Positions 5,808 to 58,562 of a stretch of 64,000 nucleotides of DNA are shown piece after piece. The stretch's first letter is position 1. Every line of letters starts with the position of its first letter. The stretch comes from Cephalotus follicularis. Its lineage: Eukaryota; Streptophyta; Magnoliopsida; Oxalidales; Cephalotaceae. Location of the stretch: assembly GCA_001972305.1 (NCBI GenBank), contig BDDD01001795.1:26126-90125 (forward strand), in the 5' to 3' direction. The notes under the pieces were generated by a model. It saw only the letters and a list, made by a program, of their open reading frames with translations. It was not told the origin of the DNA and did no database searches. The translations under genes were made by a program, and so were the position numbers.

Positions 5808-5905
5808 TATCCCCGCCAAATCACATGGCGTCATATCGTATCCCCGCCAAATCACATGGAATCATATCATAACCCCGCCAAATCACATGGCGTCATATCA
5901 TAACT
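5808..5905. repeat. 31-bp tandem repeat, three copies
   Basis: Units contain ccccgccaaatcacatgg followed by cgtcatatc; the core gcca-aatcaca-tggc is a small inverted repeat. Two copies are found at the equivalent place in the family H LTR (about 22350-22425), so the repeat is an old component of this LTR lineage. Confidence 0.75.
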
Positions 5906-7387: not shown

Positions 7388-7500
7388 CAGTCGACTGCCT
7401 TCATGAACCAGTCGGCTGTTGGGTTGAGTAGTCGACTGCCAGGCCTTGCCAGTCGACTGGATTAATTGTGTAGTCGACTGTCTTCAATGACAATCGACTG
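7388..7500. repeat. Class A palindrome array (CAGTCGACTG), 6 units, 20-21 bp steps
   Basis: Units start at 7388, 7409, 7429, 7450, 7471 and 7491, giving steps of 21, 20, 21, 21 and 20. Each unit is CAGTCGACTG or a one- to two-base variant (for example tagtcgactg, cagtcggctg, caatcgactg). The 10-11-bp spacers are unrelated to each other. Confidence 0.9.
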
Positions 7501-8519
7501 GTTTTGCCCAGAATTGCAGGCAGAACAGTGTATATGCAGTATAATTTCAATACCAATCAGTGCAATGCAAGTAGAAATTTACATACATAAAATGCATGAA
7601 CATATCTTCCAAAGCATAACACTACCCCTACCTCAATTTGCTATCCGAAGATCAATTGTGTGATCTTTCTCTTTAAAGTTCCAAAGCCTTTTTCCAAGCT
7701 TTCCACCAACAATTCTTTTAATCTCAGCAATTCAATCTATACATGCATGTTTATGGATACATGCAACAGTAACAGTAGATTCAGTAACACTTATAACCAT
7801 TCCAATCACTAGCTTAAGTCATTAGTTCATTAAGCATATATCAACTCCCTTTTATCACATCTCATGCATTTGATCCCACTATATTAATTCATTGTCTTCT
7901 AAGTGGACCATAGATATGTTTGTATATCCATAAGGAATTCAGTAACTTATGATGACCACTAACAACAATTTGCTAACCTATTAGAGATTAACATCCATTC
8001 ATGAACCAATGCTACATTCCATTTTAATCCCTTAATCCTTAGAAGATGTTAACCAACCTTGATACAAAAGATTAAGCATTCTCCTAACCTTACTGTCAGA
8101 TTACAACACAGGGAGTTCGAATTGAACTTACCAGGAAGGAGTCCAAGCTTCTTTCAAGACTTTGCGCTCCACCCCCAATCCACAATGCAAGCTCCAAATC
8201 GAAATTCCCAGCAACACTCCTCAATGTTCAGTGTTTCTAACACTCCTTCATACCACTCAACAGTTGATATAAGCCATGAATTCGCCAGAGTTCATCTGCT
8301 CTAACATTTTCTCTATTATTCCTCTCACTCACATGCACCCCTTTCTCACCTTTCTTTCTCTTTTCAATGTTGCAGGTGCAGGTCTGTCATTGCAGAACAC
8401 ATGCAAGGGTTCTCCTTGCATGTCATGGAAGCTTGTGCATGCCCACAACACCTGTCCTTTAGCATGCCATGCTCAAGCTCAACTTCACACCTGCACAGAC
8501 ACCTGTTCTGTCGTAATTC

Positions 8520-8599
8520 CAGTCGACTGGATGCATGGGACAGTCGACTGTCCACAACACGCATCAGGCAGTCGACTGCTCCCCTGTGTCAGTCGGCTG
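8520..8599. repeat. Class A palindrome array, 4 units
   Basis: Units begin at 8520, 8541, 8569 and 8590 (steps 21, 28, 21), all CAGTCGACTG except the last, cagtcggctg. In the minus-strand LTR this is the upstream array, on the U3 side. Confidence 0.9.
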
Positions 8600-11283
8600 T
8601 CAAGATTAAATTAGGGTTTCTTAAGTTGGATTTCCACCAAATTGCATTCCAATTCAACCCAAGTAATTACCAATCACAAAATGTAATAATTGGACATTAA
8701 ATTCAAATAAGTGCACATTTTATTAATCATTATTACAATGTACACGAATTGAATTTGCGGTTATTACATCTGCTGCACTCACACTCAGCATACCATCATA
8801 GACAATAGTATGCCGCAGATCCAGGTATGGAACCCGGGGGCAGTTTCCACATAACACCCCATCATAGACCAATGGGCCTGCTAAGTAGAGTTGAGCGTCG
8901 AACATATACCTCTTCGTGGACCGGTAATACATATCAGAGAACCCGGTACCCAGCATCAGAGTATATCATAGTATAACAATATAACAAGTGACGATATCAC
9001 AAATGTGAGAAGGTGACCAAGTCACCCAGAACATCGAGCATATACCCGCTCGGAATCATATCACAACCATGAATACGTTAACAGAAGATGACTGGGATAC
9101 AAATCCCAACCAATATCACAATCACAAGAAAATAGGGCACATATGAAGACAACATGACTCTCAAATAATAAATTGCTCAACGGTATCATCAACAAAGCTC
9201 AAGTATAACAAAACAGAAACCAATCGAAATCAACAAATCCGGCCCTCAATAGCCATCTCATGATAGAACCACAAAAGAGCACATACCCAACAATAAAACT
9301 CAAACAAAATGATACAAGGCTAGAATGAATATAATAATAGCAATAGAACGAAATAGATCTTCGTAGAAGTTAAACAGATATAACAACAGCAACAAAACAA
9401 TATTCGTCCGCAGGAGCCCATGCGGATACGACATCACGAGGTGAAATGAATATACGACCACAAGGTCTCATATCAACATAGAAGTTCAAACGAGAATACT
9501 CAAAGGGTTCCCGAATAACCAACAATGAAATCGTCATATAACAATTCACATGGTGGAGTCAACAATAAGGTCTATCAACAAATATACAATTAAGAAGCAC
9601 AATCAAAGCACGACCAATGATCAAAATATCAAGAAACAGGTCATGTCACATGATGGAATCCAATAATAAAGGCTATCAACAACATTTGACATTTGAGAAA
9701 TCACAATAGAGTCACATCATCAAAGAATAGCAATAACAAATAAGGTAAAGGAAGGAGATGTTCTACTCATAGAATTATTGAAATCAGCTATGCGAACTAG
9801 CCCCTCGATTCTCCGAATCAGTTACAGCAATCTCGTCTACAAAATCATTACATAACTGACTTAGAATTCATAGGTTCTCTACTTTTAACATGAAACGCAT
9901 GAATGAAAGCATGAAATACCATGATCCAGTTTTCTCCCCCCTAATAACACCTAACAACCTATAATTTCATCATCACAATATTCGCATAATTACTGCTTGA
10001 CATTAAAACACCGCTTCACATACCCTCACTTACTAACATTATCATATAATCACCTCATCATTCATGTTACTCACGATTCACTATCATTATCTTATAACCC
10101 GTTCCAATACAACCATAATTATCTACTATCGTATAATTACTCCTTCACATCGGTAAACTTATTCAACCACATTTGAACAGGAAAAAGAAGGTTAATTGCA
10201 ACTTACCAGAAACTGGGTTCGCCAGAAAAACTGTGGGTCGTCATCAATTGGAACTCCACCATCCTTCACGCTGCATAGACATAACACGTATCGTTACGAC
10301 ATACATACAAGAAACAAATTGTCGTAATCGAAACTCCGACCAACTTGCCAAAGTTCCGGCGACACCTAAAACAACCCCCAAAATTGCTGGTCAACACATT
10401 ACTGATTGAAATTCACTGTGACTCGCCCGAGAACGGGCAACCACCGCCGGCAGTGAGTTTGACTCACTGAGTCAACTCGTCGGTCATCCAACAATTATGG
10501 CCACTTCACAAAAAAGTGTCCACGAGGCCCGTAATACGCATCTCTGCCCGTAACTTGCCTCAAATCAGCGGCTGTCGCTGCGTCAGAGCTCCGGCCGAGT
10601 TGCCATTGCACTGGTCACGCCACCACTAGCCTCCAAAAGCTCCGGTCTACTCATTGGTGACCAAGACTCACCGGGAATCGACGTAGAACACAGCGTTAGA
10701 GGCGGCAGTGAGTCAACTCGTTTAGTTTACTGAACTTCTAAAATCCGGCCAATTCCGGCCAAATGACGCCTCAGCCACTGTCAAAATAGGGAGAGCTGGT
10801 CTTCTAGACCAAGACCGCCCCAAACCGCGATGACAACGTCGGCGAACGCGCAGCGACAGTGACGGCAAGGGAAAAAGAAAAGGGAAGAAAGGAGAAGAAA
10901 GAGAAAGAAAAAGGAAAGAAAGGTTACCTGGTAGTGGAGGTGACGCCGACGCCTTCTTTCCCGGCCTCCGGAGCCTCGCCCGGTGTCTCTCTCCCGTTCT
11001 CTGCATCCATCTCTCTCATCTCTCTGTTTACTCTCTTCTCACACAGGCGCATAACGCCCGTGTCTTGTTTCCATTTTTAACTAAGGCGCTAGGCGCAATC
11101 TAGCGCCTTCAGCCGATTTTGTAACGCCCGGAAGTTCAATTTCACGTATTAATGTAATCCTCGATGTAACCTTTACCTTGAATTAATAAAAGGCAAATTT
11201 CCTGGGTGATATCTTGAATTCAAGGTAACTTAGAACATTTAGAAGAGTGATTCTAAGTATAATTGTGGAGATTTTGTCTTGGA

Positions 11284-11435
11284 CATCCGACTGGTGCAAT
11301 ATACCAGCCGACTGTTGGACTAAAGGGAGAGGCAGTCGACTGGCGAGAGGAACCAGCCGACTGGCTAACTGTCGTGACACTTGGCAAAAGACTGCCAGGC
11401 GAAGCAGCTGACTGCCAGGGAAAGGCAGCCGACTG
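11284..11435. repeat. Class A palindrome array upstream of the LTR promoter, 7 units
   Basis: Units start at 11284, 11305, 11333, 11354, 11385, 11405 and 11426 (steps 21, 28, 21, 31, 20, 21). Core variants are cagccgactg, cagtcgactg, cagctgactg and one eroded caaaagactg. Confidence 0.88.
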
Positions 11436-11661
11436 GATCGTGCCCTGTTCTGTTACATGTGACAGAAATCACATGTTACAACTGAAAGGGAATCTTGCAG
11501 GCGCCATCTGATGATAAATGAAACGTGTTGGGCATGCACCACCACGCCAGGACCTGCAAGAAAAGAAAGGAAGAGAAAGAATGACAAGTGTGTGTGCATG
11601 CAAGTGATAGTGAGAGGAATGGGCTCTTATGCCATGCAAAGGGGGTTGAAGGGGAGAGACT

Positions 11662-11671
11662 GCATAAAATG
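11662..11671 (+). promoter_or_regulatory. Probable TATA box of the 5' LTR
   Basis: gcataaaatg is followed by a C/T-rich stretch (cttcctgccttcgtctctctcaccc type), as in plant LTR promoters. The corresponding box is kept in the solo LTR 51677-53970 (ccataaaacc at 52067). Confidence 0.55.
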
Positions 11672-11886
11672 CTTCCTGCCTTCGTCTCTCTCACCCTACA
11701 ATCCGATAAGAGAGAACCAGAGAATTTGAGAGTCAAAATAGTGGGATATTAAGAGAAAGACAGTGAGGAAGTGAGAGGTTCACCATTGTTGAAGCTTGGA
11801 ACTTGGGATTGGAGCAAGTGGACCGTTCGTGGAGCTACTGGGAGGCTCAAAGACACTGGAAAGGAGACACAAAGAGGTGGACTTTC

Positions 11887-11904
11887 GATTTCTAACTTGA
11901 AATC
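11887..11904 (+). other. Conserved LTR hairpin with TAACTT loop
   Basis: gatttc-taactt-gaaatc, a 6-bp stem, directly precedes aaaggtagggg. Related LTRs keep the loop but change both stem arms together (see 39336, 52253 and 28052). The AG|GT that follows could be a splice donor; this is inferred. Confidence 0.7.
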
Positions 11905-12267
11905 AAAGGTAGGGGTAGTTGTTGAGAATGTTATGCATGCATTTTGAGTTTAAAGAGTAATGATGTTATTAATGAATGGTGTAGTCATTGGTTATGGATT
12001 TCTGTGTTAAGGTTATGGTTACTGATTAATGAATAACCTGATATGCACATTGATTTTGAATGGAGAATTTGGTTGGTTTTCATGCAATGCCATGTTTGAA
12101 TGTCATTTGAATTATGATAAAAACGGAAAATAATGCATGAATTGAGTTATGTTTTAAACCATGATATGATTTCTGGTGATGTTCTGAGATCTGTATACGT
12201 GTGGTTAAGTCCCAATTGCGTTTTGGATGGATTTAGAAGTGGATTGCTGGTACCGTCCAGCCAAGAG

Positions 12268-12490
12268 CAGCCGACTGTTTAAGTAAAGCAGTCGACTACT
12301 CAAACATCCAGTCGACTGGCATGTAATAACAGTCAACTGCGTATACGATGTTATCCAGAACAGTCGACTGTCAAAGGAAGGCAGTCGACTGCCTAATGCT
12401 CGTGATGAACCAGCCGACTGTTGGGGAAGAACAGTCGACTGACTCAAGGATCCAGCCGACAACTAACTGTTATGAGGAAACAGCTGACTG
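12268..12490. repeat. Class A palindrome array downstream of the LTR promoter, 10 units
   Basis: Units start at 12268, 12289, 12309, 12330, 12361, 12382, 12411, 12432, 12453 and 12481 (steps 21, 20, 21, 31, 21, 29, 21, 21, 28). The 3' LTR keeps the same series from 17635; its last step is 21, so the 28 here reflects a 7-bp insertion. Confidence 0.92.
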
Positions 12491-12895
12491 TTATAGCAGA
12501 AATTGGACCGTTAGAGAAGGTGATAGGCCTAGGTTAATTACCAAAAACCCTAGGTGCATTCTGAGCATATGTTTGCATTATTACTATGAATTGCATTATG
12601 GTTGATTTCTAAAAAGTGTTAACCATTTTGAAAATCTTGCATGATTATTATAATCATTATTGTACGAAAATGTATATTTGTCAAACATATGATTTTATAT
12701 ATTTTCGAAATGGCTGGGGAAGTATCCCCAAAGACGGAGAAATGTTTTAAAGGATTGAATACGCAATTCAAATGTATTGGTTTATGTTTTATAACTTATC
12801 ATAACTTGTGAACGGAGTAATATATTTTAAACAAATATATGTGATCAAGTAATCATATTTTATTGCTTGACTTGTAATGCTTGTGCTTGTTGATT

Positions 12896-12976
12896 ATTAG
12901 CCGCTGTGCTAATAACTTGTTGATTACTCAGCCGCTGTGCTAGTAACTTGCTGTTGGTTTAGCCGCCGCGCTAAAC
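12896..12976 (+). other. Three consecutive stem-loops with CGCTGT-type loops
   Basis: attagc-cgctgt-gctaat (12896-12913), ttactcagc-cgctgt-gctagtaa with one bulged base (12924-12946), and gtttagc-cgccgc-gctaaac (12957-12976). The arms differ from one stem-loop to the next but remain complementary. The 3' LTR carries the same three at 18256-18336. Confidence 0.7.
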
Positions 12977-13700
12977 AACATACGGAGGACTTGCTCCAAA
13001 ACCGTTCGCAAACGGGGATGGGGTAATAGTGCATGACGTTGGGGCCAGGAGGTGGCGACGGTTATGACGACTTGTTTGTCTGGTCCCTTTTGGGACATAC
13101 TTATTGCTCGTGTTGATATAACTTATGATTTATACTTGTACGGTGAACATGCACATGTTTTATATGTATATACGGAGATATAATTATTGTGAAAATTTCA
13201 TGTCATGCTGCATCACTATGCATTCATTCATGATACGCATTACCTTTGACCTTGAACTGTATACATAAACTTTTCTACTTAGCTGAGTGAGGACAAAGGC
13301 TAACCCCTACTGTAACAGATTGACGGAGTGTATATGATATGGAGCATGCATGGAGGCTTAAAGAGAAGACTTAGTTGTTTCTCTTATTTCTTGTATTGAG
13401 TTAATGAATAATGACTATGGAACCGGGTTTTGTAACATGGGTTTATTTTGTTATTTCGTACTGTTTTATCACTCTCTGTTTATGGGCGATCGACAATGAT
13501 GTTGGATTTTATTATAAACTTTTTGGGCATCACGTAGTATGAGATGTGTGATGCATGTTTAAATTCGGCTCACTTATGTTATTGCTTTCTCTATCGAAGG
13601 TTTTTATTTATTGGTAAATCTGCATGATCTGAATTATACTATGTTGATTGCCTTACCACTTTATATGTTGTCTTAAATTGGAAAACGGGGTGTGACAACG

Positions 13701-13712
13701 TGGTATCAGAGC
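13701..13712 (+). other. Primer-binding site (initiator Met-tRNA)
   Basis: tggtatcagagc lies three bases after the 5' LTR. It is complementary to the 3' end of plant initiator tRNA-Met, the usual primer for these elements. Confidence 0.95.
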
Positions 13713-13811: not shown

Positions 13812-14612
13812 ATGGATCAAAGTAGAACACATGGTAGGGCTAGAGCTGCTGGAGCCAATGCCCCTGAGGAAATGAATGTGCCGCAAGGAGTGAATGTCCC
13901 CCAAGATGATAGGGACCTGATGGCCCGGATTGCGGACTACTTCCAGCAAGAGATGGCCTTTAATATGGCCAATGCGGAGGATATGCGCCAGTACTACGCG
14001 CAAGCTCGACCGTAACATAGAGCTCCCGATCACTGCCTGGGGGAGGATGGTAGTCAGTTTGGAAGGGACATCGAAAGGTTTATGAGACAGAATCCACCTA
14101 GCTTCCGGGGAGAACTTGATGCTACGGTTGCTGAAAGATGGCTCCAAGACTTGGAGAAGATTTTTGATGTGATGGACTGTACTGATACTCAGAAGCTGAA
14201 GTTTGTTGTGTACCGTCTATGGGGAGAGGCCACTCACTGGTGGGAGATGGTCAAAGCAAAGTGGGAGTCTATTGGACTCGATGCTACATGGGAGAGGTTC
14301 CAGACAGAGTTCCTCGACTCCTATGTACCCCGGATTGAGCAAGAGCGGAGGGAGACAGAGATTCTTGAGTTACGGCAAGGGGAGATGACTGTGGCCGAGT
14401 ACCAGGCCAGGTTTATGGAGCTATCCAGAGATTCACCTTATCTGGTAGCCGATGACATGAAAAAGATATGGAGATTTCTGAAGGGTTTGCGACCGAATCT
14501 TCGGTCGAGGATTAGGGCTATGGAGCTGGGTACTTTTTCGGAGGTTGCTCAAAAGGCGAGGCTGCTAGAGAGCATATCCAGTGAGGACCGAGCAGAGAGG
14601 GCACAAGCATAA
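13812..14612 (+). pseudogene. gag: gag of the Ty3/gypsy element, with an in-frame stop
   Basis: The capsid-like Gag packages the element's RNA into cytoplasmic particles. The frame opens with ATG at 13812, about 100 bases after the primer site. It is interrupted by TAA at 14013-14015 and continues in the same frame through the Retrotrans_gag domain: a PPSFRG motif near 14094, then W-rich helices (14140-14300) and an ELRQGEMTVAEY motif near 14365. It ends at TAA TAG about 14610. The zinc-knuckle part follows in another frame (from 14753), so a frameshift separates it. A complete Gag would run on through the zinc knuckles; here it cannot be made in one piece. Confidence 0.9.
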
Positions 14613-14752
14613 TAGAATAAACAGAGCCCGACGAGACCAGCATCTTCAAAATGGTAGGGCAGTGGTTCTCTGACTAAATCCTCGAAGAACAGATCTGGAC
14701 AGACTGCCACACAGGGTACTCCTAGTCAGGGGAGTAATGCGGGAACTGGAGC

Positions 14753-14926
14753 TTGTTATCACTGTGGTCGTAAGGGCCACTTACAGAAGGATTGCTGGAG
14801 GATGAATGGACTGTGTTTGAGGTGTGGGGAATCTGGCCATTCAGTGAGAGATTGCCCGAAGAGTCAGGCTACAGCACCAACTAGACCAGCGAGTAGCAGC
14901 GGGGCCGCAGCGGGGCCTTCACAGTG
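14753..14926 (+). pseudogene. gag: Gag nucleocapsid part: two CCHC zinc knuckles
   Basis: Two tandem CX2CX4HX4C motifs, CYHCGRKGHLQKDC (14753-14794) and CLRCGESGHSVRDC (14813-14854), are followed by a Ser/Ala-rich tail and a stop at about 14924. These bind the element's RNA. The frame is shifted relative to the capsid part upstream, which marks an indel between 14612 and 14753. Confidence 0.9.
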
Positions 14927-15046
14927 AAGGGACACCGACAAGGGCATTGCGAAAGGTAAAGTTTTTACCCTTTCACAGACAGAGGTTCCGGAGTCTACCT
15001 CGGTCGTTGGAGGTACACTGTATATTTATGGTTTACTGCTAGAGTA

Positions 15047-15751
15047 TTGATGGACCCTGGAGCATCACACTCATTCATATCATCATATTTTGCATCATGT
15101 TTAGATGTAACACCAGACAACATGCCATATACCTTGGATGTAAGCACACCTGCCAGAGTTTCCATGTATACAGATACTGTATATAGGGGTTGTGAGATGT
15201 CTATGGCAGGCATTTCCTTGTATGCGGATTTGATAGCGTTGCCTATCTGCGACTTTGATATTATCTTGGGGATGGATTGGCTGTCAGCACATCGTGCTTA
15301 CATGGATTGCTACAACAAGACGGTTGATTTTCGTCTGCCCGATGGTACTACTTTACAGTTTAAGGGAGACAAGGGGTTTTCTACACCGATTGTATCCTTC
15401 ATCCGTGCGTTGAAGTATCTCGAGAAAGGATGTGAAGGGTATCTTGCTTATGTAATTGACCAGAGGAAGGAGAAGGGCTTGAGCCTGGAGGAGATCCCAG
15501 TGGTATGTGACTTCCCAGATGTATTTCCTGATGACTTGGGATCTTTTCCACCAAGAAGGAATATGGAGTTTGTCATTGATCCTATACCAGGTACAACTCC
15601 TATTTCTAAAGCACCGTATAGAATGGCTCCTGCAGAATTGAGAGAGATGAAATTGCAGTTACAGGACCTGATCGATAAGGGTTTCATTCGACCCAGTGTT
15701 TCACCGTGGGGTGCACCTGTACTGTTTATCAAGAAGAAGATGGGTCGATGA
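15047..15751 (+). pseudogene. pol: pol part 1: aspartic protease and start of reverse transcriptase
   Basis: The reading frame starts just before the protease active site, seen as MDPGASHSF; the usual Asp-Ser/Thr-Gly-Ala reads DPGA, which also occurs in related plant elements. The ILGMDWL flap/helix motif typical of retropepsins follows near 15269. From about 15500 the N-terminal part of the RT begins (APYRMAPAE, then [16 protein letters not shown]). A frameshift in the KKK/EED run near 15740 moves the remaining RT to another frame. The protease would cut Gag-Pol inside the particle. Confidence 0.9.
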
Positions 15752-16971
15752 GGCTCTGCATCGACTACAGAATGTTGAACAAGGCAACGATTAAGAACAA
15801 GTATCCTTTACCTCACATCGAGGATTTGTTCAACCAGTTACAAGGAGCGAGAGTGTTCTCAAAGCTTGATTTGAGGCCAGGTTATCACCAGTTGAGTGTG
15901 AGGGAAGGAGATATAGAGAAGACTGCTTTCCGAACAAGATACGGTCACTATGAGTTCCTAGTGATGCCTTTTGGTGTTACCAATGCATTGGTTGCGTTCA
16001 TGTCTTTGATGAACGATGTGTTTTGACCATACCTGGACCAGTTTGTCGTTGTGTTTAATGATGACATACTTGTATACTCAAGGAGTGAGGAAGAGCATGC
16101 TTGCCACCTGAGGTTGGCTCTGCAGATCTTCCGAGAGCACCAGTTGTATGCCAAATTCAGTAAGTGTGAATTTTGGCTTGACCGTGTGATCTTTCTTGGT
16201 CACATTGTATCTGGAGAAGGTTTGGTGGTGGATCCGTCAAAGACAGAGGTGGTACAAGATTGGCCACAACCGAGGAATGTAACGAAGGTACGCAGTTTTC
16301 TTGGGTTGGCGCGGTATTACCGAAGGTTTATCCAGAATTTCTTGAGAATAGCTGAGCCCTTGACTAGATTGACCCAGAAGAAGACCATGTTTGTTTGGGA
16401 TGATGATTGCAAAGCTAGTTTCCGTGAACTGAAGGATCAGTTTGTTTCCGCTCCTATCTTGGCATTACCCGAGGGTAATGAGGGCTTTGCGGTTTATAGT
16501 GATGCATCGGGTAAGGGCTTGGGCTGCGTGCTGATGCAGCGAGGAAAGGTGATTGCTTATGATTCTAGGAAGCTGAAGCCGTATGAAAAAAACTACCCGA
16601 CTCATGATCTTGAACTTGCAGCTATCATCTTCGCCCTTCAAAAGTGGAGACACTATCTTTATGGGGCGCAGTTTGAGATCTTTACCGATCATAAAATTTT
16701 GAGGTACCTGTTCTGTCAGGACACACTGAACATGAGACAGCGCAGGTGGGTAGAGTTCTTTAATGATTATGACTGCAGTATCCAGTACCACCCGGGGAAA
16801 GCGAATGTAGTCGCTGATGCCTTGAGTCGCAAGGCTATGGTTGCCAGTACGATGGTGTCGCAATGGAAGATGTTGGAAGACTTCCAAGAGTGGTCTCCAT
16901 TCAATCAGTCACCGGGGATTTTTGTGGCTGACATGCGGGTCCAGCCAGTGTTACTTGATCACATCAGGGAT
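15706..16971 (+). pseudogene. pol: pol part 2: reverse transcriptase and RNase H, cut by the gap
   Basis: RT makes cDNA from the element's RNA. Visible blocks are [44 protein letters not shown] and the catalytic segment FNDDILVYS (FIDD is usual, so Asn replaces Ile beside the two catalytic Asp). A TGA at 16024-16026 interrupts the frame. The connection domain and RNase H follow: [10 protein letters not shown] (catalytic Asp), the TDHKILRYL region, and [15 protein letters not shown] near 16795. The frame then runs into the N at 16972. The integrase expected next is absent, because of the assembly gap rather than a demonstrated deletion. Confidence 0.92.
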
Positions 16972-16972
16972 N
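16972..16972. other. Assembly gap shown as a single N
   Basis: Left of the N is the end of RNase H; right of it (16973) is gatagtgagaggaatggg, which corresponds to position 11606, 486 bp inside the LTR. The rest of pol, the polypurine tract and the first 486 bp of the 3' LTR are missing at one ambiguous base, so it marks an unresolved join of unknown size. Confidence 0.9.
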
Positions 16973-19057
16973 GATAGTGAGAGGAATGGGCTCTTATGCC
17001 ATGCAAAGGGGGTTGAAGGGGAGAGACTGCATAAAATGCTTCCTGCCTTCGTCTCTCTCACCCTACAATCTGATAAGAGAGAACCAGAGAATTTGAGAGT
17101 CAAAATAGTGGGAGATTAAGAGAAAAATAGTGAGGAAGTGAGAGGTTCACCATTGTTGAAGCTTGGAGCTCGGGATTAGAGCAAGTGGACCGTTCGTGGA
17201 GCTACTGGGAGGCTGAAAGACACTGGAAAGGAGACACAAAGAGGTGGACTTTCGATTTCTAACTTGAAATCAAAGGTAGGGGTAGTGGTAGAGAATGTTA
17301 TGCATGCATTTTGAGTTTAAAGAGTAATGATGTTATTAATGAATGGTGTAGTCGTTGGTTATGGATTTCTGTGTTAAGGTTATGGTTACTGATTAATGAA
17401 TAACCTGATATGCACATTGATTTTGAATGGAGAATTTGGTTGGTTTTCATGCAATGCCATGTTTGGATGTCATTTGAATTATGATAAAAACGGAGAATAA
17501 TGCATGAATTGAGTTATGTTTTAAACCATGATATGATTTCTGGTGATGTTCTGAGATCTGTATACGTGTGGTTAAGTCCCAATTACGTTTTGGATGGATT
17601 TAGAAGTGGATTGCTGGTACCGTCCAGCCCAGAGTAGCCGACTGTTTAAGTAAAGCAGTCGACTACTCAAATATCCAGTCGACTGGCATGTAATAACAGT
17701 CGACTGCGCATGCGATGTTACCCAGAACAGTCGACAGTCGAAGGAAGACAGTCGACTGCCTAATGCTCGTGAGGAACCAGCCGACTGTTGGGGAAGAACA
17801 GTCGACTGACTCAAGGATCCAGCCGGCTGTTATGAGGAAACAACCGACTGTTATAGCTGAAATTGGACCGTTAGAGAAGGTGATAGGCCTAGGTTAATTA
17901 CCAAAAACCCTAGGTGCATTCTGAGCATATGTTTGCATTATTAATGTGAATTGCATTATGGTTGATTTCTAAAAAGTGTTAACCATTTTGAAAAGCTTGC
18001 ATGATTAGTATAATCATTATTGTACGAAAATGTATATTTGTCAAACATATGATTTTATATATTTTCGAAATGGCTGGGGAAGTATCCCCAAAGATGGAGA
18101 AATGTTTTAAAGGATTGATTACGCAAGTCAAATGTATTGTTTTAAGTTTTATAACTTATCACTACTTGTGAACAGAGTAATATATTTTAAACAAATATAT
18201 GTGATCAAGTAATCATATTTTATTGCTTGACTTGTAATGCTTGTGCTTGTTGATTATTAGCCGCTGTGCTAATAACTTGTTGATTACTCAGCCGCTGTGC
18301 TAGTAACTTGCTGTTGGTTTAGCCGCCGCGCTAAACAACATACGGAGGACTTGTTCCAAAACCGTTCGCAAACGGGGATGGGGTAAGAGTGCATGACGTT
18401 GGGACCAGGAGGTGGCGACGGTTATGACGACTTGTTTGTCTGGTCCTTTTTGGGACATACTTATTGCTCGTGTTGATATAACTTATGAGTTATACTTGTA
18501 CGGTGAACATGCACATGTTTTATATGTATATACGGAGATATAATTATTGTGAAAATTTCATGTCATGCTGCATCACTATGCATTCATTCATGATACGCAT
18601 TACCTTTGACCTTGAACTGTATACATAAACTTTTCTACTTAGCCGAGTGAGGACAAAGGCTAACCCCTACTGTAATAGATTGACGGAGTGGATATGATAT
18701 GGAGCATGCATGGAGGCTTAAAGAGAAGACTTAGTTGTTTCTCTTATTTCTTGTATTGAGTTAATGAACAATGACTATGTAACCGGGTTTTGCAACATGG
18801 GTTTATTTTGTTATTTCGTACTGTTTTATCACGCTCCGTTTATGGGCGATCGACATTGAGGTTGGATTATATTATAAACTTGATTGGCATCACGTAGTAT
18901 GGGATGCGTGATGCATGTTTAAATTCGGCTCATTTATGTTATTGCTTCCGCTATCGAATGTTTTTATTTATTGGTAAATTTGCATGAGCTGAATTATACT
19001 ATGTTGATTGCCTTACCACTTTATATGTTGTCTTAAATTGGAAAACGGGGTGTGACA
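16973..19057 (+). repeat. 3' LTR of the Ty3/gypsy element, first 486 bp missing
   Basis: Collinear with 11606-13697 of the 5' LTR, with scattered substitutions and a few indels. It ends ggggtgtgaca and is followed by the target duplication gattt. It keeps the hairpin (17254-17271), the downstream array (17635-17850) and the three stem-loops (18256-18336). Confidence 0.93.
17635..17850. repeat. Class A palindrome array in the 3' LTR, 10 units
   Basis: Units at 17635, 17656, 17676, 17697, 17728, 17749, 17778, 17799, 17820 and 17841. Spacing agrees with the 5' LTR except the last step (21 here, 28 there). Confidence 0.9.
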
Positions 19058-25663: not shown

Positions 25664-26971
25664 TGCAATAACCGCAAATTCAATTCGTGTACATTGTAAT
25701 ATTGATTAATAAAATGTGCACTCATTTGAATTTAATGTCCAATTATTATAAGATTGTGATTGGTAATTGCTTGGGATGAATGGATGAACATTTGGTTAAG
25801 TATCAAACTTAAGAGACCCTAAAACAACCATTGACAGCCAACTGCCACCGGGGGCCAGTCGACTGTCTAATGCGTGGTAGGGCAGTCGACTGCCCAGTGA
25901 AGACAGTCGACTGGATCGGTACAGAACAGGTGTCTTTGCATGCCTGTGTGACTGAAACGAAAGGGAATGCATGGAGGGCAGGTGTCATGCGTGACAGGAG
26001 CTGCCAGAGCATGAAAATTAGAGTGCTTGCATGCCCCCTATTCCATCTGCAAGTTGCAGACCTGTAACCTGCAAAAACAAAAGAGAGAAAGGTGAGAAAG
26101 AGGAGTGCATGTGAGAGAGAGAAGGAATGAGAGAAGCTGAGTTAAAGGACTCTGGCGAATTCAAGGTCCCTAAACCCTATATTAGCTGTGCATGAGCTGA
26201 GAGTGAGTGTTAGAAACACTGAAAATTGAGGAGAGTTGCTGGGATTATTGGAGCTTGCATTGAGGATTTGAAGTGGAACTCAAAGACTTGGAAGCTTTAG
26301 ACTTTTCCTGGTAAGTTCAATTCGAGCTCCCAGTTTAAGTAGTACTGTTAATGATGCAACTAGGAAGGTTTGTTATCTTCTGTTAATGGTTAAGAATCAA
26401 CAACTCCTAGAATTGAAATAGGAGGTAGCATATGGTTCAAGAAAATGGAGATTATACCTCTAATTGGATTATAGTTGTTGTTAATGTCAGAATATATGCT
26501 TACTGGGTTCCTTAAGTATGTATATACCTTCTGTCAACAAGTTAAGATCAATGAATCCGAAATTTAAAGATACTTGACTTAGAGTTCCAAGAGAAAGTAG
26601 TAACATGGAAGTTAAGACTTAAGGAATTGATAATAGGCTACTAATGAAGTAGTAATCGCAGCTGATATTGAGTCATACCTACTGGTTAATAACTGAACAA
26701 CATGCATACATAGATTGTACTGTTTTGTATTGAACGGTTCATACCTCGTTTCTGTTGTATTTCTTTATGTTTAAGGATAATATTTGACTTATACCCGCAC
26801 GTACTATGGGATGCGTGCGGATGACTTGTATTTTTATATTCCAGCTTATTGAATGCTTCCGCATATTATTTTATAAACTATTGAATGAAATGCTGGAGTA
26901 TTATGTTTAATTCTTATATCACCATATATGCTTGTCTTAATGGAATGGGATTGAAATAACGGGGTGTGACA
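25664..26971 (+). repeat. Solo LTR of family G
   Basis: Begins TGCAATAACCGC, ends ACGGGGTGTGACA, 1308 bp; flanked by ttcct at 25659-25663 and 26972-26976. It contains the class A array 25835-25913 on the U3 side. Compared with 6087-8768 it has lost about 1.35 kb internally, including the downstream array. Non-coding. Confidence 0.92.
25835..25913. repeat. Class A palindrome array, 4 units
   Basis: Units at 25835, 25856, 25883 and 25904 (steps 21, 27, 21): cagccaactg followed by three perfect CAGTCGACTG. Confidence 0.9.
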
Positions 26972-27438: not shown

Positions 27439-27705
27439 GCGTCAACATGTACCATATAGGCGTTAATGTTCAACCCAGTCACTTAAGCGTCGCCGCTTAA
27501 CTCTTAGTGTCAACGCTTCTAGCCAGAAACTTTACGTGTCAACATCTCATCCCTTTGGCGTCGATGCGCTGAGGTAGGAACCTCAGGCGTCAACGGCACA
27601 CGTGTCCATTCTCACATACAACGAATCATGGCGTCGACATTTTCTCTAAGCGTTGACGTTTCTCGCGAATCAAGACTCATTCTCCGTATAACAATCCATA
27701 GCATC
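27439..27705. repeat. Class B palindrome array (GCGTCGACGC), diverged
   Basis: Units such as gcgtcaacat (27439), gcgttaatgt (27460), gcgtcgccgc, tgtcaacgct, gcgtcgatgc, gcgtcaacgg, gcgtcgacat, gcgttgacgt, gcatcgacgc and gcatcgacgg, with steps mostly of 19-22 and 27-29. Most changes are C-to-T or G-to-A at the central CpG. The 5' LTR keeps the last pair in undecayed form (gcgtcgacgc, gcgtcgacgg at 32416-32446). Confidence 0.8.
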
Positions 27706-28051
27706 GACGCTTCTTTCCTAAGCATCGACGGTTAAGAGAACCAAAACACGGTTCCTTCAACACGCCTCAAAACCAATAGAGTTCAAGCATACAACACATG
27801 CAATCTGATCTACAATCATTATAAAACACAATATACAGGACGGGTTAACTATTCATAGCGACCCTAACACACTCACATAATCCATTATCCACAGTCCACA
27901 ATAATTCTATGACACGATATGCATAACGGGTTAACTACTCACAGTAACCCTAACATAGTCACACAATTCACAATCCGTAAACCATGCATTTCATCAATGG
28001 CATTACAATATTATTGAACTCAAACTTGCATGTATAGCTTCCCCTACCTCT

Positions 28052-32003: not shown

Positions 32004-33942
32004 TGTCACACCCCATTTTACAAACAACAATAAAAGTGGTGGCAATCAACATATAAATCCGGCTTATGCAATTTACCATATTTAAAACTTTTCATATCCA
32101 TTAACAACTTGCGGAAGCATTTAAATATAAGCCGAATTATAACATAACATGCATCCCATACTACATGCTACAACAATAAACATCATCAAAGTTAACTGCC
32201 CTCAAACGGAGTGTGAACAATATTCATCAATACATCGTTTCATTTATTACAATGATCCATTAACATTTCTCAAAAGTAAAAACAACATAAAACTCCATTC
32301 GCTCCACGGAGCTCAACGGTAACAATCCGCTGCATCAACCTGAAATCAATCTGAAAGTGTAGGGGGGTGACGTTTCTCGCGAATCAAGACTCATTCTCCG
32401 TATAACAATCCATAGCGTCGACGCTTCTTTCCTAAGCGTCGACGGTTAAGAGAACCAAAACACGGTTCCTTCAACACGCCTCAAAACCAATAGAGTTCAA
32501 GCATACAACACATGCAATCCGATCTATAATCATTATAAAACACAATATACAGGACGGGTTAACTATTCATAGTAACCCTAACACAGTCACATAATCCATA
32601 ATCCACAGTCCACAATAATTCTACGACACGATATGCATAACGGGTTAACTACTCACGGTAACCCTAACACAGTCACACAATTCACAATCCGTAAACCATG
32701 CATTTCATCAATGGCATTACAATATTATTGAACTCAAACTTGCATGTATAGCTTCCCCTACCTCTGATTCCAAGCTAGGAATCACAGCAGCAGCAGCACA
32801 GTCGAGCAGCAGGTTCAATTGCCGAACATTTCCCAGAAATCGTTGAACTGAACCCGGTTCTCGTCAATTGATCAATTCCTCAATGCCAAATCCAATTGCC
32901 ACTCACACACTGCACATACAACACATTTCCGTCATGTTCGACACACACAACATTTCCATCGCCGAAACGCCAGCCGGATTCCGACCGACACAACCAGGCG
33001 ATGAAACACCCATCAACGGGTTCCACATTAAACGGTCTACTCAAAACCGGTCAAGACTTACCAGGAATCGGCGCCGAACACCGCGCCACGGCAGGCAGCG
33101 AGTCGTGACTCACTGAGTCAACTCGCCAGACCTCCACAGGTCTGATCGCCACCCAAAAATGCCACACAATCACCAGTCCTACGCGTCACTGCCCGTGACT
33201 CGCCAAGACTCGGTGCCAAACGCGCCGTCTCAGGCGACAGTGAGTTGACTTGCTGAGTCGACTCAGTCAAGCCATTCTGGCCGATTACGGCCAAATCACA
33301 CCTCACCGGTGGTCAAAATGGGTAGAGCGGGCCTTCTACACCATAACCCACGCCATTCGCGACGCTAACCGCGCCGGGAATCGCTGGGAGGAGGCGCGAC
33401 AGTGGCGGCAAAGGAGAAGAAAAAAGAAGAAAAAGAGAAGGAGGGGGAAGAGATTACCGGTTGGTGGCGTGCCTGGGTTGACCGCCGCGCTCTCCTGGTC
33501 CGGTAGCTGGCTCCGGTGTGCTCTCTCTCCCTATGCTCTGATCTCTCTCCCAATCTCTCTCTCTCTTTCTGGCGCGGGCGTACAGAGCGCCTGCTGCCTA
33601 TTCCATGCACGGGCGCGTGATGCGCCTGTGTCTCTCCCTCTCCCTTCCTTTATTTTGCTTCTCCCTTAGTATTTTCTGGTAAAATACTAAGGTCTGAGTC
33701 CCGATTTTTTCGCGAATCGTGACATAAATTATCCAAACGACCACCAAAATAATCGCAATAATATTGCGAGCATTCGGGCTTTATTTTCGCGCATTAAAAA
33801 TAGGTTTTATTAGCCGTCTTAGCTAACACGATTACGACTTAAATGCGTAATACCTTTTTATTACTCCGGGCTCTATCGATTTTATCACAACTGTACACGC
33901 ACCAATTTCATAATAATTATTTATGAAATTCAGGGAGTTACA
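32004..33942 (-). repeat. 5' LTR of the family F element, internally deleted
   Basis: Matches the outer parts of 24621-29230. At about 32367 the sequence jumps from the equivalent of 24985 to that of 27648, a deletion of about 2.7 kb that removed most of the palindrome array and the minisatellite. The right part, 32368-33942, is nearly the same as 27649-29230. Confidence 0.88.
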
Positions 33943-47027: not shown

Positions 47028-47652
47028 TAGCCAGACCTTTGTTAATCAAATTACAGGTACATGGCATAATATGGAGAGGTCGTTGGAACCTCTAAGGGGG
47101 AGGCCGTTGGAACCTCAAGAACAGAATTTAGACATGCATCACATACATACTATAAACTAATGGCAGGTTATGGAATTTTACTACTGCAACTTGTTTGACT
47201 CTCAAACAAGCTGTTGGTCTCATTCCTAGGTATGTTATTACAATCATATATTCGCTCCCATACATGCATGGGTCATGTAATATCTTCGTTCTCCTCCAAC
47301 TTGCTTCCGCTGCGATGCTCGCTCTTCTTTTACATAAAACAACTATAAACTACAGAAACCTTGAAATAAATCAAGGGAAGTTACAAGGAAGTGAAGAAGA
47401 ATTGTAGATACAAATTAAGAGAGAGAAGAGAGACATGCAAGTTTCAAAATTACAACCCGAAAATAATGAAAAATAAAAACATACATTCAACACTTGAATA
47501 AAATAAGACAAACTAGGTCAAGTCCATAGCCATACCATCATGCATATTCAATCTCATTGAATCAACAAATAAACTTGATAGATATATTTCTAAAACATAG
47601 ACAATTGATTGGGTAATTGGAAAAACTCTTTTTCCTGCAAATTAATGCCAAA

Positions 47653-47959
47653 CCGTCGACGCTTTTAAACAAAGCGTCGATGTCCATGCGTTAAGCGTTG
47701 ACACTTGCATTCCTTTGTGCGCGTAAGCGTCGATGCTTTTCTCAAAAGTGTCGATCGTTTTACGCGTAGGTGTCGACATCTTGCTCGAGTGAAGACGCAG
47801 TTTTAACGCATAAGCGTCGATGCTCTCACAAGCGTCCGCACTTTAGAGCATAAGCATCGAAGCTTTTCCCAAAAGCATCGACGCTTTGTCCATCTTCGTG
47901 CGATTCCTGACAGTGGTATCCCGCGTAGGAGCCTACGCTTTTCACGAATGTGTCGATGC
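47653..47959. repeat. Class B palindrome array in the Ty1/copia leader, 11 units
   Basis: Units start at 47653, 47674, 47695, 47727, 47748, 47770, 47814, 47832, 47854, 47875 and 47950. Steps include 21, 21, 32, 21, 22, 44, 22 and 21. Variants: ccgtcgacgc, gcgtcgatgt, gcgttgacac, gtgtcgacat, gcatcgacgc. Many neighbouring spacers extend the dyad, as in gacgctttt-aaac-aaagcgtc. Confidence 0.85.
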
Positions 47960-48087
47960 TTTCGCGACTGCAGAAAATTCCAAATCGCAAATTTGCATCC
48001 CATGCTTTCGTCTCACGGATTAAACCCAAACAATTCAAGCATATCATCAACAAACATGTTTCTAACTATATAGATGCATCAAATCCA

Positions 48088-49297: not shown

Positions 49298-50371
49298 TGA
49301 AAACAAATGTATGGCAACCTTTAACAAGAAAATTGTATACGGAAATTACAATTTAAACAATGAATATAAACAATCACACAATAACAAATAAATTAAAGAG
49401 ATAAGGGATAGAAGGATTGCAAACGAATTTATAGTGGTTCGGCAAATCCGTGCCTACGTCCACTTTCTCAAGACCTCTTGAGTTTCCACTAGAATCCACT
49501 AGCAACCTTTGATTTTTGGCTTACGGGTGCAAATCAAACAAACCACCTTACAATTGATTTGAGTTCCGGGTGCAAATCAATGAAACACCTTACAAGGGTT
49601 CACTCCCCTCAAATACAAAGAATGATAAGAGTGAATTGGTTGGTGTTTACAAATAACCTCTTGAAGGTTGGATATGAAAGTTATAGACTAGATACAAGCT
49701 TTGGATATTGATTTGAAAGATTGAAAATATCTCTTGTGTTGCTTGGAAGAAGTGTATATTTGCTTGTTATCTCTTGATGTGTCTCTTGTGTAAAAATACC
49801 CCATTTTCCCTTTTATAGAGATCCTCCAACGGATCTATTTTTGTGCATTCAGAACAAATCCAGTCGACTGGATTTTCCTTGCAGTCGGCTGGGCAAATGT
49901 TGTGCATTTGTAATTATAGCCGTTGGAGAAGTGGCAGTCGGCTGGATGGACTGGGCAGTCGACTGGATGCCTTGACAGTCGATTGATGCTCTGTTCCAAT
50001 TGGCTGTCTGAGCTAGAAATTCGATTTCCAAAGCTACTGGTTGAATTGTGCATCTCTTGGCAGTCGACTGGTGTCCTGTGGCAGTCGACTGTCTTGGCCT
50101 GGCAGTCGACTGGAGCCCTGAGGCAGTCGGCTGGCTGGAGTGCAAATGTAGATTCTGGGTTTGTTTGAAGGTCCAGTCGGCTGGTCATACTTGGGTAGTC
50201 GACTGGATTGCCTGTTTCTGCAATTTACAACCTTTGCAACACTTTCAACATTACAACCAAGTGAGTATATGATATCAAAACATGCATATAAGTGTTTCTT
50301 GATTGTTACTTGTTTGTTAATCATCGAAACATAATCTTTAACACAATTAAAGGGGTGGCAAAAAGCCAACA
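49298..50371 (-). repeat. Solo LTR of family I
   Basis: Plus-strand ends tgaaaacaaatgtatggc and aaaaagccaaca, 1074 bp, flanked by ttctc (49293-49297 and 50372-50376). A minus-strand TATA box (plus-strand ttttatagag, 49811-49820) gives the orientation. The class A array 49861-50206 lies directly upstream of that promoter. Confidence 0.92.
49861..50206. repeat. Class A palindrome array next to a minus-strand LTR promoter, 12 units
   Basis: Units start at 49861, 49882, 49935, 49956, 49976, 49997, 50061, 50082, 50103, 50124, 50175 and 50197; steps are 20-22 inside groups and 51, 53 and 64 between groups. The consecutive run 50061-50133 has exact 21-bp steps. Confidence 0.92.
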
Positions 50372-50782: not shown

Positions 50783-51112
50783 GACATCAATCTCCAGCCC
50801 ATGGACATCGATGTCTTTTGCTTTAGAATGCAGCATCTTTGATTCTGCAGCAAAGACATCGACGTCTTTTATGGACATCGACGTCTTTGTCTTGGAATTT
50901 CTTCTCCCCAGAGAAGACATCGATGCGTATTCCCATGCTATTTTTATTGAATCAAGTCGACGTCTTTGTCCAAGGACATCGACGTCTTTTGGCCTGACCT
51001 CTACACAAGCAGAGAAAGACATCGATGTATTTCAAAGACGTCGATGTCCTTCCATAGTTTTAAAGGAATGCCCTGATACGCATCGATGCCTTTGGCCAAG
51101 GACATCGACGCC
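50783..51112. repeat. Class C palindrome array (GACATCGATGTC)
   Basis: Units at 50783, 50804, 50855, 50874, 50916, 50955, 50975, 51018, 51037, 51080 and 51101, mostly in pairs 19 or 21 bp apart. Variants: gacatcgatgtc, gacatcgacgtc, gacgtcgatgtc, gcatcgatgc. Spacers inside pairs are often self-complementary, such as cctttggccaagg. Confidence 0.88.
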
Positions 51113-51822: not shown

Positions 51823-51951
51823 CAGCCGACTACCCAAGAGGGATAGTCAACTGGACCCCCTTGTGCGGAACCAGCCGACTGCTGTGAGAGACAGTCGGCT
51901 GGAAGAGGTGTCGGCAGAGACAACCGATAGCCAAGACAAGGAAGTCGACTG
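51823..51951. repeat. Class A palindrome array upstream of the promoter, 6 units
   Basis: Units at 51823, 51844, 51872, 51892, 51921 and 51942 (steps 21, 28, 20, 29, 21). Confidence 0.87.
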
Positions 51952-52066: not shown

Positions 52067-52076
52067 CCATAAAACC
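52067..52076 (+). promoter_or_regulatory. Probable TATA box of the solo LTR
   Basis: ccataaaacc followed by a C/T-rich start region (cacttcctcccctcattcc). Confidence 0.5.
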
Positions 52077-52272: not shown

Positions 52273-52455
52273 TAGGGGTAAATCTCATAATTGTTATTTA
52301 AGTTCCGTTATAATGGAAGTTAATGGACGAAATGCATGCTATGGACTGTGTTATGAGCATAAATGTGTGTTATTGCTGTTGAATGCTCATTTTGGATTGG
52401 ATTGAATTGAGAAAGACATGCATTTTTCTGCTGTTTTTACCTACTGATGTAAATC

Positions 52456-52763
52456 CAGTCGACTGCCAAGGCGGGCAGCTGACTGGCGAGCTAGAACAGC
52501 CGGCTGTTCGGTGCGAACAGCCGACTACTCAATGGGAAACAGCCGACTGGACGTAAGAACAAGCCGACTGTTCATGCGTATAATAGGAAATACATGCAGA
52601 AGGTTAAGTAGTCAACTGCCAAGAGAGGGCAGCCGACTGGATGGGGAAAATAGCCGACTGCCAGAGGAGACAGCCGACTGTTAAGGGAGGCAGCCGACTG
52701 CCAGAATTAGGACAACCGACTGTTCAAGGAAAACAGTCGACACTCAAGAGACACAGCCGACTG
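52456..52763. repeat. Class A palindrome array downstream of the promoter, 14 units
   Basis: Units at 52456, 52476, 52497, 52518, 52540, 52561, 52609, 52630, 52651, 52671, 52691, 52713, 52734 and 52754. All steps are 20-22 except one of 48. The prevailing form is cagccgactg. Longest array in the window. Confidence 0.93.
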
Positions 52764-57295: not shown

Positions 57296-57751
57296 CTTTA
57301 AATTTATTATAGAGTTCAATTACCTATTATGATTAAAGTCGAGAAAAACCTTAGATTCCCGTTCATGATTCGTTCAATAGGAGTGAATCATGAATTGTCC
57401 AGTTCGGACAGTTCTCGTATACGTATGTCCACTGTAGGATATATCGTTATCTTGTGTACATAGTTTGCTTCAAGAAAGTTTCGGTTACACTCCTTAAACA
57501 TGTTCCTCGGATGCATAATTAAACCGGTCAATTCAGTTTAATTTGTGTGTTTGAGGAACCATGGGGAGATGCTGCCGAAATTTTCTCGGAGTGAACAATG
57601 CACGCGGGATAACGATATTAGTGGAGGTACGTAGTCGGGAATGGGATAGGGACATACCTTTTAGAGTTAGGTGGTGAGATACACTTCATTCAATGCATAT
57701 CGAGAAAAGTATACTTGAATCTAACAATCTTCTACCCTACTTGTAGAAAAA
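57296..57751 (+). other. 5' untranslated region of the CACTA transposase gene
   Basis: Non-coding stretch between the AT-rich repeat and the transposase start. Candidate splice sites are present, but no exon could be fixed. Confidence 0.45.
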
Positions 57752-58562
57752 ATGTCTGTTGACAGGAGTTGGATGAGTAGGCGGGTTGTCCGGGGGTTAC
57801 TAACGGAGGAATTTAACAGGGGTGTGCTCGCTTTCTTAGATTTTGCATTTTCAAATCAAGATTTTGTCTGGGATAGTAAGATAAAATGTCCTTGTAGCCG
57901 TTGCAAGTTAAGGGCGTTTGGAACTCGATCTGAAGTGCGGTTACATTTGTTGAAGAAGGGTTTCACCCCTCATTACACGTTGTGGGATCAACATGGGGAA
58001 AAGAGGGAACACCGTCGGGCTGCAGTAGAGCAGCCAGACCCCTCGGGTCTGAGAAATCCTTTTGTTGATCTCGTAATGGATGCCGGGGGGTTTGATTTTG
58101 ACACTAGTAAACATGACGAGACGGCCAATGAAATTCTGAACCCCAATACAAAGAAGTTCTACGACCTGCTTAAGGATGCCGACGAACCGTTGTGGAATGG
58201 TTGTAAAAAACACACCAAGCTGTCTATGATGACGCGACTCATGAATGTCAAGTCCAAGTATGGAATGACAGTTGCAATGACTTCTACAGAGCCTTGGTCG
58301 ACGTCGTGGAGCTCGATTTCAATGGAAAATACAACAACGTTGATTTATTTAAGTGTGATTGGGTTGACACTGCGGAGAGAGTTACCAGAGTGGACGAGTT
58401 TGCGATTGTTCATCTAAACCCAGAAAAGGAACTCCCCACATATGAGCCGTTCATACTAGCGAGCCAGGCTGTGCAGGTGTTCTACGCACCTAGCATTTCC
58501 AATGATCGTAGGTACAAAGGGTGGGTGACTGTAATAAAAACGAAAGCCAGAAATTCCTACAC
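57752..58562 (+). pseudogene. CACTA transposase (TNPD-like), central domains deleted
   Basis: Starts at ATG 57752 with a Transpos_assoc domain (residues about 3-85: DRSWM near the start, the CPCSRCK zinc-binding motif, LLKKGFTPHYTLW). A linker runs to about 58265. Next, in a different frame, comes a DUF4216-like C-terminal domain (58294-58562: LFKCDWVD, then EPFILASQAVQVFYAP). The catalytic Transposase_21 domain and DUF4218 that normally lie between are gone, and the join is out of frame. The gene was then split by the solo LTR at 58563. It cannot make an active transposase, so the copy is non-autonomous. Confidence 0.88.

Follow-up and report, generated by a model that had tools for sequence, protein, structure and literature searches.

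Introduction

VANDAL elements are Mutator-like DNA transposons, the repeats of the HTLV-1 LTR have 21 bp as their length and not as their step, and the Drosophila DREF element (TATCGATA), a palindrome centred on TCGA, is the site of a dimeric factor. In the parts of the VANDAL/VANC accounts available to us, short motifs in the same orientation are dense in the non-coding regions of the transposons, upstream of genes and in introns, and differ between VANDAL families, the VANC21 motif being YAGTATTAY (PMC5735166, PMC10398659). The available part of the HTLV-1 account describes 21-bp LTR repeats with sites for a dimeric host factor that act on a TATA promoter (PMC506788). From similarly partial sources, the BII boxes in the promoter of the tobacco retrotransposon Tnt1 bind defence-induced factors (PMC3316501), and sunflower Tekay and Athila elements carry additional ORFs, extra genes of which some have a transposase-type domain (PMC11728184).

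The arrays of TCGA-centred palindromes described here, from Cephalotus follicularis, resemble the VANDAL/VANC motifs in being dense, in lying in non-coding parts of transposable elements and in keeping, for 16 of 18 informative arrays, to a single orientation. Their carriers, however, are LTR retrotransposons of two superfamilies and not Mutator-like DNA transposons, and their motif, CAGYCGACTG, has a palindromic TCGA and mostly two-turn spacing, unlike YAGTATTAY. The parallel with VANDAL elements drawn in the original prediction thus holds for the layout but not for carrier or motif. As in HTLV-1, sites are repeated in LTRs. Arrays precede TATA-like boxes, which mark putative promoters, in the copia LTRs of L001, L003 and L013; whereas HTLV-1 relies on CREB/ATF sites and the virus-encoded Tax, the Cephalotus core is TCGA or CCGA, with no CRE-type core. 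The BII boxes belong to one family, while the Cephalotus arrays, likewise boxes in putative plant retrotransposon promoters, occur in several. Extra genes like those of the sunflower elements are present in Cephalotus copia elements; the part of the sunflower account available treats the proteins and makes no mention of motif arrays. The DREF element has the TCGA-centred palindrome in common with the arrays but belongs to another kingdom and another use. The Cephalotus system would work like the motif platforms of transposable elements and like LTR enhancers, but its sequence and its carriers place it in neither group.

Methods

Cephalotus follicularis is the Australian pitcher plant, order Oxalidales. 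The window, meaning the whole stretch of DNA analysed, comprises 64,000 nt (contig C1795:26126-90125, forward strand) of an assembly of 1,577,397,061 bases (~1.58 Gb) in 9,746 contigs; other loci carry L numbers. Three classes of site were distinguished: class 1, CAGTCGACTG/CAGCCGACTG with the consensus CAGYCGACTG; class 2, of the GCGTCGACGC type; and class 3, of the AAAGACATCGATGTCTTT/GACATCGATGTC type. Class-1 sites in the window were searched with up to two mismatches to CAGTCGACTG, and the same search was run after shuffling the window 40 times by dinucleotides within 1-kb blocks. A sample by place consisted of 20 pieces of 10 kb (200 kb) from contigs C11-C1803, picked blind to sequence. 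Step counts by class were taken from these 20 pieces, the window and L029-L038 without L033, and exclude L001-L008 and L039-L040. The orientation survey leaves out L004 and L006, which overlap L003 and L005, and the TATA-offset survey leaves out L004, L006 and L033. Masked-homology, divergence and spacer comparisons were made on a hand-chosen subset of arrays.

Results

All nine arrays named in the original prediction were recovered in the window (Table 1), and the array at 52456-52763 indeed holds 14 copies at steps of 20-22 bp plus a single step of 48. The window contains 78 class-1 sites, a few of them outside arrays, and 44 adjacent steps of 20-22 bp were observed against a mean of 0.025 and a maximum of 1 in the shuffles. 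Arrays in the loci read hold up to 17 sites. The motif, previously called constant, is better termed conserved, since no more than six of the 14 copies at 52456-52763 match CAGTCGACTG or CAGCCGACTG in full; the remaining eight have at least one base changed, several of these changes at CpG. The TCGA-centred CAGTCGACTG is a palindrome but CAGCCGACTG is an imperfect one, position 4 being T or C (0.59 and 0.40 in the chosen arrays). The predicted step groups of 20-22 and 27-29 bp are common, but that of 31-32 bp is rare (1 of 143 class-1 steps) and is exceeded by steps of 48-53 bp (11 of 143). Two further classes of TCGA-centred palindrome with similar spacing, absent from the original prediction, were also present in the window.

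The placing of the arrays in LTRs is direct for 11284-12490 and 17635-17850, which belong to an element with a primer-binding site, gag and an LTR pair, and indirect for the others, for which it was assigned from homology to LTRs elsewhere, sometimes of the flank only, or from a like layout. Downstream of the 52456-52763 array, the sequence has a homologue in L003:6-641, which belongs to an LTR ending at a primer-binding site, and the flanks of 49861-50206 are ~90% identical to the LTR that follows the extra gene (aORF, see below) in L001.

Table 1 Palindrome arrays and associated features of the window (positions in the window).
Feature	Positions	Strand	Remarks
Class-1 array, B position	7388..7500	-	Related gypsy-type LTR; motif search and homology
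Class-1 array, A position	8520..8599	-	Same LTR as 7388-7500
Class-1 array A	11284..11435	+	Upstream part of Ty3/gypsy LTR; outside the piece common with the truncated right LTR
Left-LTR part	11606..13697	+	Common with truncated right LTR 16973-19057, 96.4%
Class-1 array B	12268..12490	+	Same Ty3/gypsy LTR as 11284-11435
Primer-binding site TGGTATCAGAGC	13701..13712	+	Ty3/gypsy element
gag, protease, reverse transcriptase/RNase H pieces	14016..16977	+	Ty3/gypsy type
Class-1 array B	17635..17850	+	Truncated right LTR of Ty3/gypsy element
Class-1 array	25835..25913	-	In stretch related to 8111-8768
Class-2 sites	27485..27733	.	Partly within LTR (counterpart 32413-32447)
Class-2 array (GCGTCGACGC type)	47651..47961	-	In copia element, flanked by its primer-binding site (48088) and gag
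Class-1 array	49861..50206	-	Copia-type LTR; steps 20-22, also 50, 53, 85; motif search
Class-3 array (AAAGACATCGATGTCTTT palindromes, <=4 mismatches)	50801..51093	.	Steps 19, 42-43, 51, 59
Class-1 array A, 5 copies	51823..51951	+	Upstream of TATA-like CCATAAAACC; sequence search
TATA-like CCATAAAACC	52067..52076	+	Between arrays A and B; putative promoter; read from sequence
Class-1 array B of 14 copies, with CCGA on the plus strand	52456..52763	+	Gypsy-type LTR, downstream of TATA-like box

Pieces of other elements and repeats were also encountered. An open frame at 20453-21205 matches the viral movement protein PF01107 (E 1.3e-11) and is possibly an endogenous pararetrovirus-like piece, while 57725-58414 carries the transposase-associated domain PF13963 (E 6.1e-20) and is a DNA transposon piece, presumably of the CACTA type. 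In L020, self-comparison revealed a long tandem repeat at 5680-9431 with a period near 163 bp and copies ~80% identical, a probable satellite.

The arrays are real and far above chance expectation. Genome-wide, the pattern CAGTCGACTG-N0-30-CAGTCGACTG occurs 48,687 times per strand compared with 166 for the reversed pattern, and CAGCCGACTG at a step of 21 occurs at 9,549+9,560 places compared with 27+16 for the control. Among the matches listed, 69 plus-strand CAGTCGACTG pairs, all on contig C1, had steps (derived from match lengths) of 19-22 or 27-28 bp only, namely 19 (3), 20 (12), 21 (40), 22 (2), 27 (4) and 28 (8). In the 200-kb sample, CAGTCGACTG was the commonest 10-mer apart from simple repeats (26 copies), and TCGA spacing peaked at 21 bp with 31 pairs against 1.85 expected (17x), the second commonest distance being 42 bp (15 pairs). 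A distance of 21 bp was the sole commonest one for TCGA only among the 16 four-base palindromes; for TTAA it was one of six tied commonest distances, at 2.4x expectation. The excess of 20-22-bp spacing, whose absence would have refuted the original prediction, is genome-wide.

The sample also contained AAGCGTCGACGCTT and AAAGACATCGATGTCTTT arrays. Among adjacent steps up to 100 bp, 87/130 in class 1 and 27/55 in class 2 were of 20-22 bp, and 5/16 in class 3 were of 19-22 bp. When class 1 was removed, the TCGA peak at 20-21 bp persisted (10 and 16 pairs); when classes 1-3 were removed, it was gone (0 and 1 pairs). Class 2 at a step of 21 was found at 611 places in the genome, with varied 7-bp spacers, against 0 for its control, and class-3 pairs at 690+708 (1,398) places, also against 0, with steps among the matches listed mostly of 19, 22, 29-30 and 42-43 bp. 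The array of the aORF promoter in L040 combines class-1 sites with a single class-3 site that follows one of them at 42 bp, which suggests that class-1 and class-3 palindromes are alternative versions of one site.

The original prediction had put each motif on the same face of the helix. This applies to the 20-22-bp steps but not to those of 27-29 bp, the second commonest, which are out of phase. The helical-phase test excludes steps >70 bp; over 23-70 bp, the class-1 steps (35) cluster 2.6 bp off whole 10.5-bp turns, the class-2 steps (21) fall on whole turns (P 0.04 vs uniform), and the class-3 steps (9) show no clustering (P 0.37). Strict phasing is therefore not general. The spacers of 27-28-bp steps (e.g. 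8541-8569 in the window) often contain ACGCAT or its complement, perhaps a second bound site. In the copia LTR arrays of L003, L007 and L013, sites mostly form quartets at 20-22 bp with gaps of ~50, 60 and 65 bp.

LTRs, primer-binding sites, gag and reverse transcriptase identify the carriers examined as LTR retrotransposons, and the arrays lie in the LTRs of real elements. Class-1 arrays are carried by the gypsy element with an LTR at 11284-13697 of the window and by L024, which represents a second gypsy family and has arrays in each of its two LTRs (98.6% alike), and also by the LTRs of the Ty1/copia elements L007 and L013. With the motifs masked, no homology between copia and gypsy LTRs was found among the matches listed (E <=1e-4, up to three longest per pair), and L007 and L008 matched L024 in stretches outside the copia LTR. 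As read from the sequence, LTRs of gypsy family 1 carry one array before a TATA-like box and another, array B, ~390-605 bp downstream of it, the latter preceded by the splice-donor-like AGGTAGGGGTA. Given the resemblance of AGGTAGGGGTA to a 5' splice donor, array B may sit in a leader intron. Copies of AGGTAGGGGTA or the like (donor-like AGGTAGGG) were noted between arrays A and B at 11907-11917, near 52275 and near 7630 (minus strand) of the window.

Some copia-type elements (L003, L039-L040, L001) contain, before the 3' LTR, the aORF, an extra gene related to PF20167 ('Transposase_32'). Gene-family positions are L040:1802-2893, L003:2753-3031 and L001:1-720. At 39 bits the locus pieces stay below the Pfam cut-off of 45 bits for PF20167, but close relatives carry the domain: the L040 piece matched 360 proteins at E<=1e-5, of which at least 120 carry PF20167 and are from Cephalotus, and an alignment-based protein search gave 337 matches, at least 120 of them from Cephalotus. 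The short distant copy in L025 (~25% identical) found two relatives. An array lies directly 5' of the aORF in L003 and L040 and in the LTR after it in L001, L005 and L008, and TTAGTCGACTAA-type palindromes lie upstream of the L025 copy. Six query proteins gave no PF20167 match in either the window or L024; the array-bearing gypsy elements of both are internally shortened.

The pattern CAGTCGACTG-N95-125-ATGGCWTCNARNAR was found at 286+318 (604) places in the genome compared with 0 for the control, and in 85 of 100 matches listed the motif starts 125-127 bp before the ATG, a distance fixed partly by common descent since the 604 places are related copies, found with a pattern that itself required the motif. 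In all 20 rows examined for it, chosen by eye for variety from the 100 listed, a TATA-like box (TATAAA, TTTAAA or similar) has its first base at position 27-32 counted from the motif start, and a CT-rich leader follows the box. Between motif and box, the spacers of several subfamilies are unlike in sequence but nearly constant in length. The ATG is confirmed as the PF20167 start at one listed place, C1:7665 (L040); from the common promoter and start sequence, the ATGs at the other listed places would likewise be PF20167 starts, although at least two rows, C179:549091 and C381:188552, look different. In the copia LTRs of L013, L001 and L003, the putative promoter has a TATA-like box whose start is at base 54-55 from the nearest site. 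Of 418 class-1 places in the loci read, counted on the motif strand, only one has such a box at offset 21-30, so the tight spacing belongs to the aORF promoters and not to LTRs in general.

Full-length aORF proteins seen start with a basic stretch. An AlphaFold2 model of the PF20167 protein, built from an alignment of 32 sequences, has a mean pLDDT of 43, and its confident part is one long C-terminal helix at about residues 331-370. A basic N-terminus and a long predicted helix fit a nuclear dimer and prove nothing. A PDB sequence search with the aORF protein gave no usable relative (five matches at E 0.23-0.51, the best covering the C-terminal part only).

Motifs diverged less than spacers in all six between-lineage comparisons, by 1.8-6.4x, in small samples with overlapping lineages. 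The differences per base in motif, spacer and flank were 6/170, 29/335 and 61/658 for L003/L007; 6/170, 27/335 and 59/658 for L003/L008; 19/170, 71/314 and 85/654 for L003/L013; 18/170, 61/315 and 84/655 for L007/L013; 10/110, 36/216 and 85/434 for L001 and the 49861 array of the window; and 3/60, 17/53 and 336/1251 for L002 and the 7388 array. In L003/L013 and L007/L013, motif divergence (0.112 and 0.106) is hardly below that of the flank (0.130 and 0.128), and it is the spacers that are fast (0.226 and 0.194). The two LTRs of a single insertion age without selection, and in neither of two such pairs was motif divergence lower than spacer divergence (window, 7/107, 6/109 and flank 55/1869; L024, 2/120, 2/137 and flank 22/1730). 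As the same motif-calling rule was used in both types of comparison, motif choice alone does not explain the gap between motif and spacer.

Spacer similarity was 0.406 within arrays, 0.347 between arrays and 0.322 after shuffling, and 5.9% of spacer pairs within arrays were at least 70% alike, compared with 2.8% between arrays. Spacers of one array are thus little more alike than those of different arrays, which points to growth partly by duplication but to no recent tandem duplication, the process that the original prediction had named as its refutation. The C form of position 4 keeps to a single orientation in all but two of the 18 arrays with at least two informative copies, the exceptions being the 51823 array of the window (2 to 1) and L013 (1 to 5). 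Together with the spacer likeness, this uniform orientation indicates that units were duplicated in part and that their spacers drifted afterwards. Over 12 arrays, with LTR pairs and related copies counted, the sense strand has 52 CCGA and 5 TCGG; L024 is the opposite, with CCGA not in the sense strand.

Discussion

We consider it probable, from the arrangement of the sequences, that the arrays are promoter-linked cis-regulatory platforms for a dimeric DNA-binding protein, driving or protecting retrotransposon transcription. The original prediction had proposed a multi-site protein platform, and this is the reading best supported by the results, namely by the conservation of motif over spacer, the spacing across classes and superfamilies and the placement at promoters; dimeric binding, activation and the encoder of the protein are what we infer. 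A dimer of some sequence-specific protein would probably occupy each TCGA-centred site. Most sites being two helical turns apart, neighbouring dimers would lie on one face, where they could touch and bind together. Lying upstream of transcription units and in part inside them, the clustered sites would then act as an enhancer, driving or protecting transcription from the LTRs and from the internal promoter before the copia PF20167 gene. Gypsy and copia LTR families would have come to use the same site, and the versions with other flanks, at least two (GCGTCGACGC, GACATCGATGTC), would probably be used likewise. Less in keeping with this reading are the motif divergence near that of the flank in the two L013 comparisons, the 27-29-bp steps that leave helical phase, the position of gypsy array B downstream of the TATA-like box and the rarity of a close TATA-like box away from the aORF promoters.

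The protein could be encoded by the host or by the elements, and a host factor seems somewhat more likely, because the two array-bearing gypsy elements, in the window and L024, gave no PF20167 match, shortened as they are; a host factor would also explain use by unrelated superfamilies. The alternative amounts to the platform reading with its protein named: the PF20167 aORF product would bind the palindromes and activate or demethylate its own element, and other elements would hijack it. It would account for the array on the aORF's own promoter and, by analogy with VANDAL, for flank variation between families. Arrays before the aORF in L003 and L040, in variant form in L025, and in the following LTR in L001, L005 and L008 agree with it, as do the near-fixed motif-ATG distance at many places, the 120 or more PF20167 carriers among the 360 matched proteins, all from Cephalotus, and the modelled helix, through which dimers could form if it is a coiled coil. 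The layout also resembles that of VANDAL21 in the available part of its description, with motifs upstream of genes and in introns (PMC5735166). Set against this, the gypsy carriers lack a match to the six queries, the model is of low confidence, the best PDB match has an E of 0.23, and the locus pieces fall below the Pfam cut-off, so that we regard this version as rather unlikely. Its extension to an activation or anti-silencing network common to Cephalotus LTR retrotransposons is a shade more doubtful; here an aORF dimer formed through the C-terminal helix would recognise TCGA palindromes, diverged aORF lineages would pair with CAG-TCGA-CTG, TTAG-TCGA-CTAA, GCG-TCGA-CGC and GACA-TCGA-TGTC, and unrelated gypsy families and non-autonomous elements would have evolved such arrays to exploit it. 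Such a network would be a retrotransposon counterpart of VANDAL, across superfamilies.

A host stress factor of the DREB/CBF type, for which LTRs would have gained arrays as a means of stress induction, is a special case of the platform reading. The CAGCCGACTG form contains GCCGAC, which we take to be the DRE core (RCCGAC), and some CBFs accept GTCGAC; in the part of the literature covered, GTCGAC was met in a primer table. However, the RCCGAC core is not common to all classes, being present in the CCGA form of class 1, T exceeds C at position 4 of class-1 sites, and perfect class-3 copies (GACATCGATGTC) lack even CGAC, which makes such a factor improbable. Slippage of a 21-bp unit, leaving the arrays as neutral minisatellites, would fit the slightly greater likeness of spacers within arrays, the consistent C/T variant and the two comparisons in which motif divergence is near that of the flank. 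Yet spacers diverge faster than motifs between lineages, three palindromes have one core and similar spacing, arrays recur in unrelated LTRs and before the putative aORF promoter, and copies hardly have a whole repeat unit in common, their spacer similarity being barely above background; a neutral origin is accordingly very improbable. Least credible is a signal in the RNA, whereby palindromes in transcripts would pair for genome dimerisation or packaging. Ten-base palindromes could pair, and gypsy array B may be transcribed, but CCGA in the sense strand puts C-A mismatches into self-pairing where the opposite variant would keep G-U, and the copia-LTR and aORF arrays, lying upstream of TATA-like boxes, would be outside the RNA from those putative promoters.

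The literature on LTR palindromes, TCGA palindromes, plant 21-bp repeats, VANC, Transposase_32 and Cephalotus retrotransposons, in the incomplete part covered, does not describe these arrays, and the letters of the motif returned unrelated subjects among the matches listed. As far as found, one palindromic site across retrotransposon superfamilies at such a scale is apparently new, as are parallel palindromes with one TCGA core and their placement before an internal retrotransposon gene.

If the platform reading is true, one DNA-binding specificity acts in a 1.6-Gb plant genome via near-identical sites that number tens of thousands and are common to retrotransposon superfamilies with otherwise unlike promoters. 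The arrays are ready bait for protein discovery. The convergence of unrelated retrotransposons on one transcriptional input would become directly testable, as would the question of whether retrotransposons, and not just DNA transposons like VANDAL, encode sequence-specific activators or anti-silencers.
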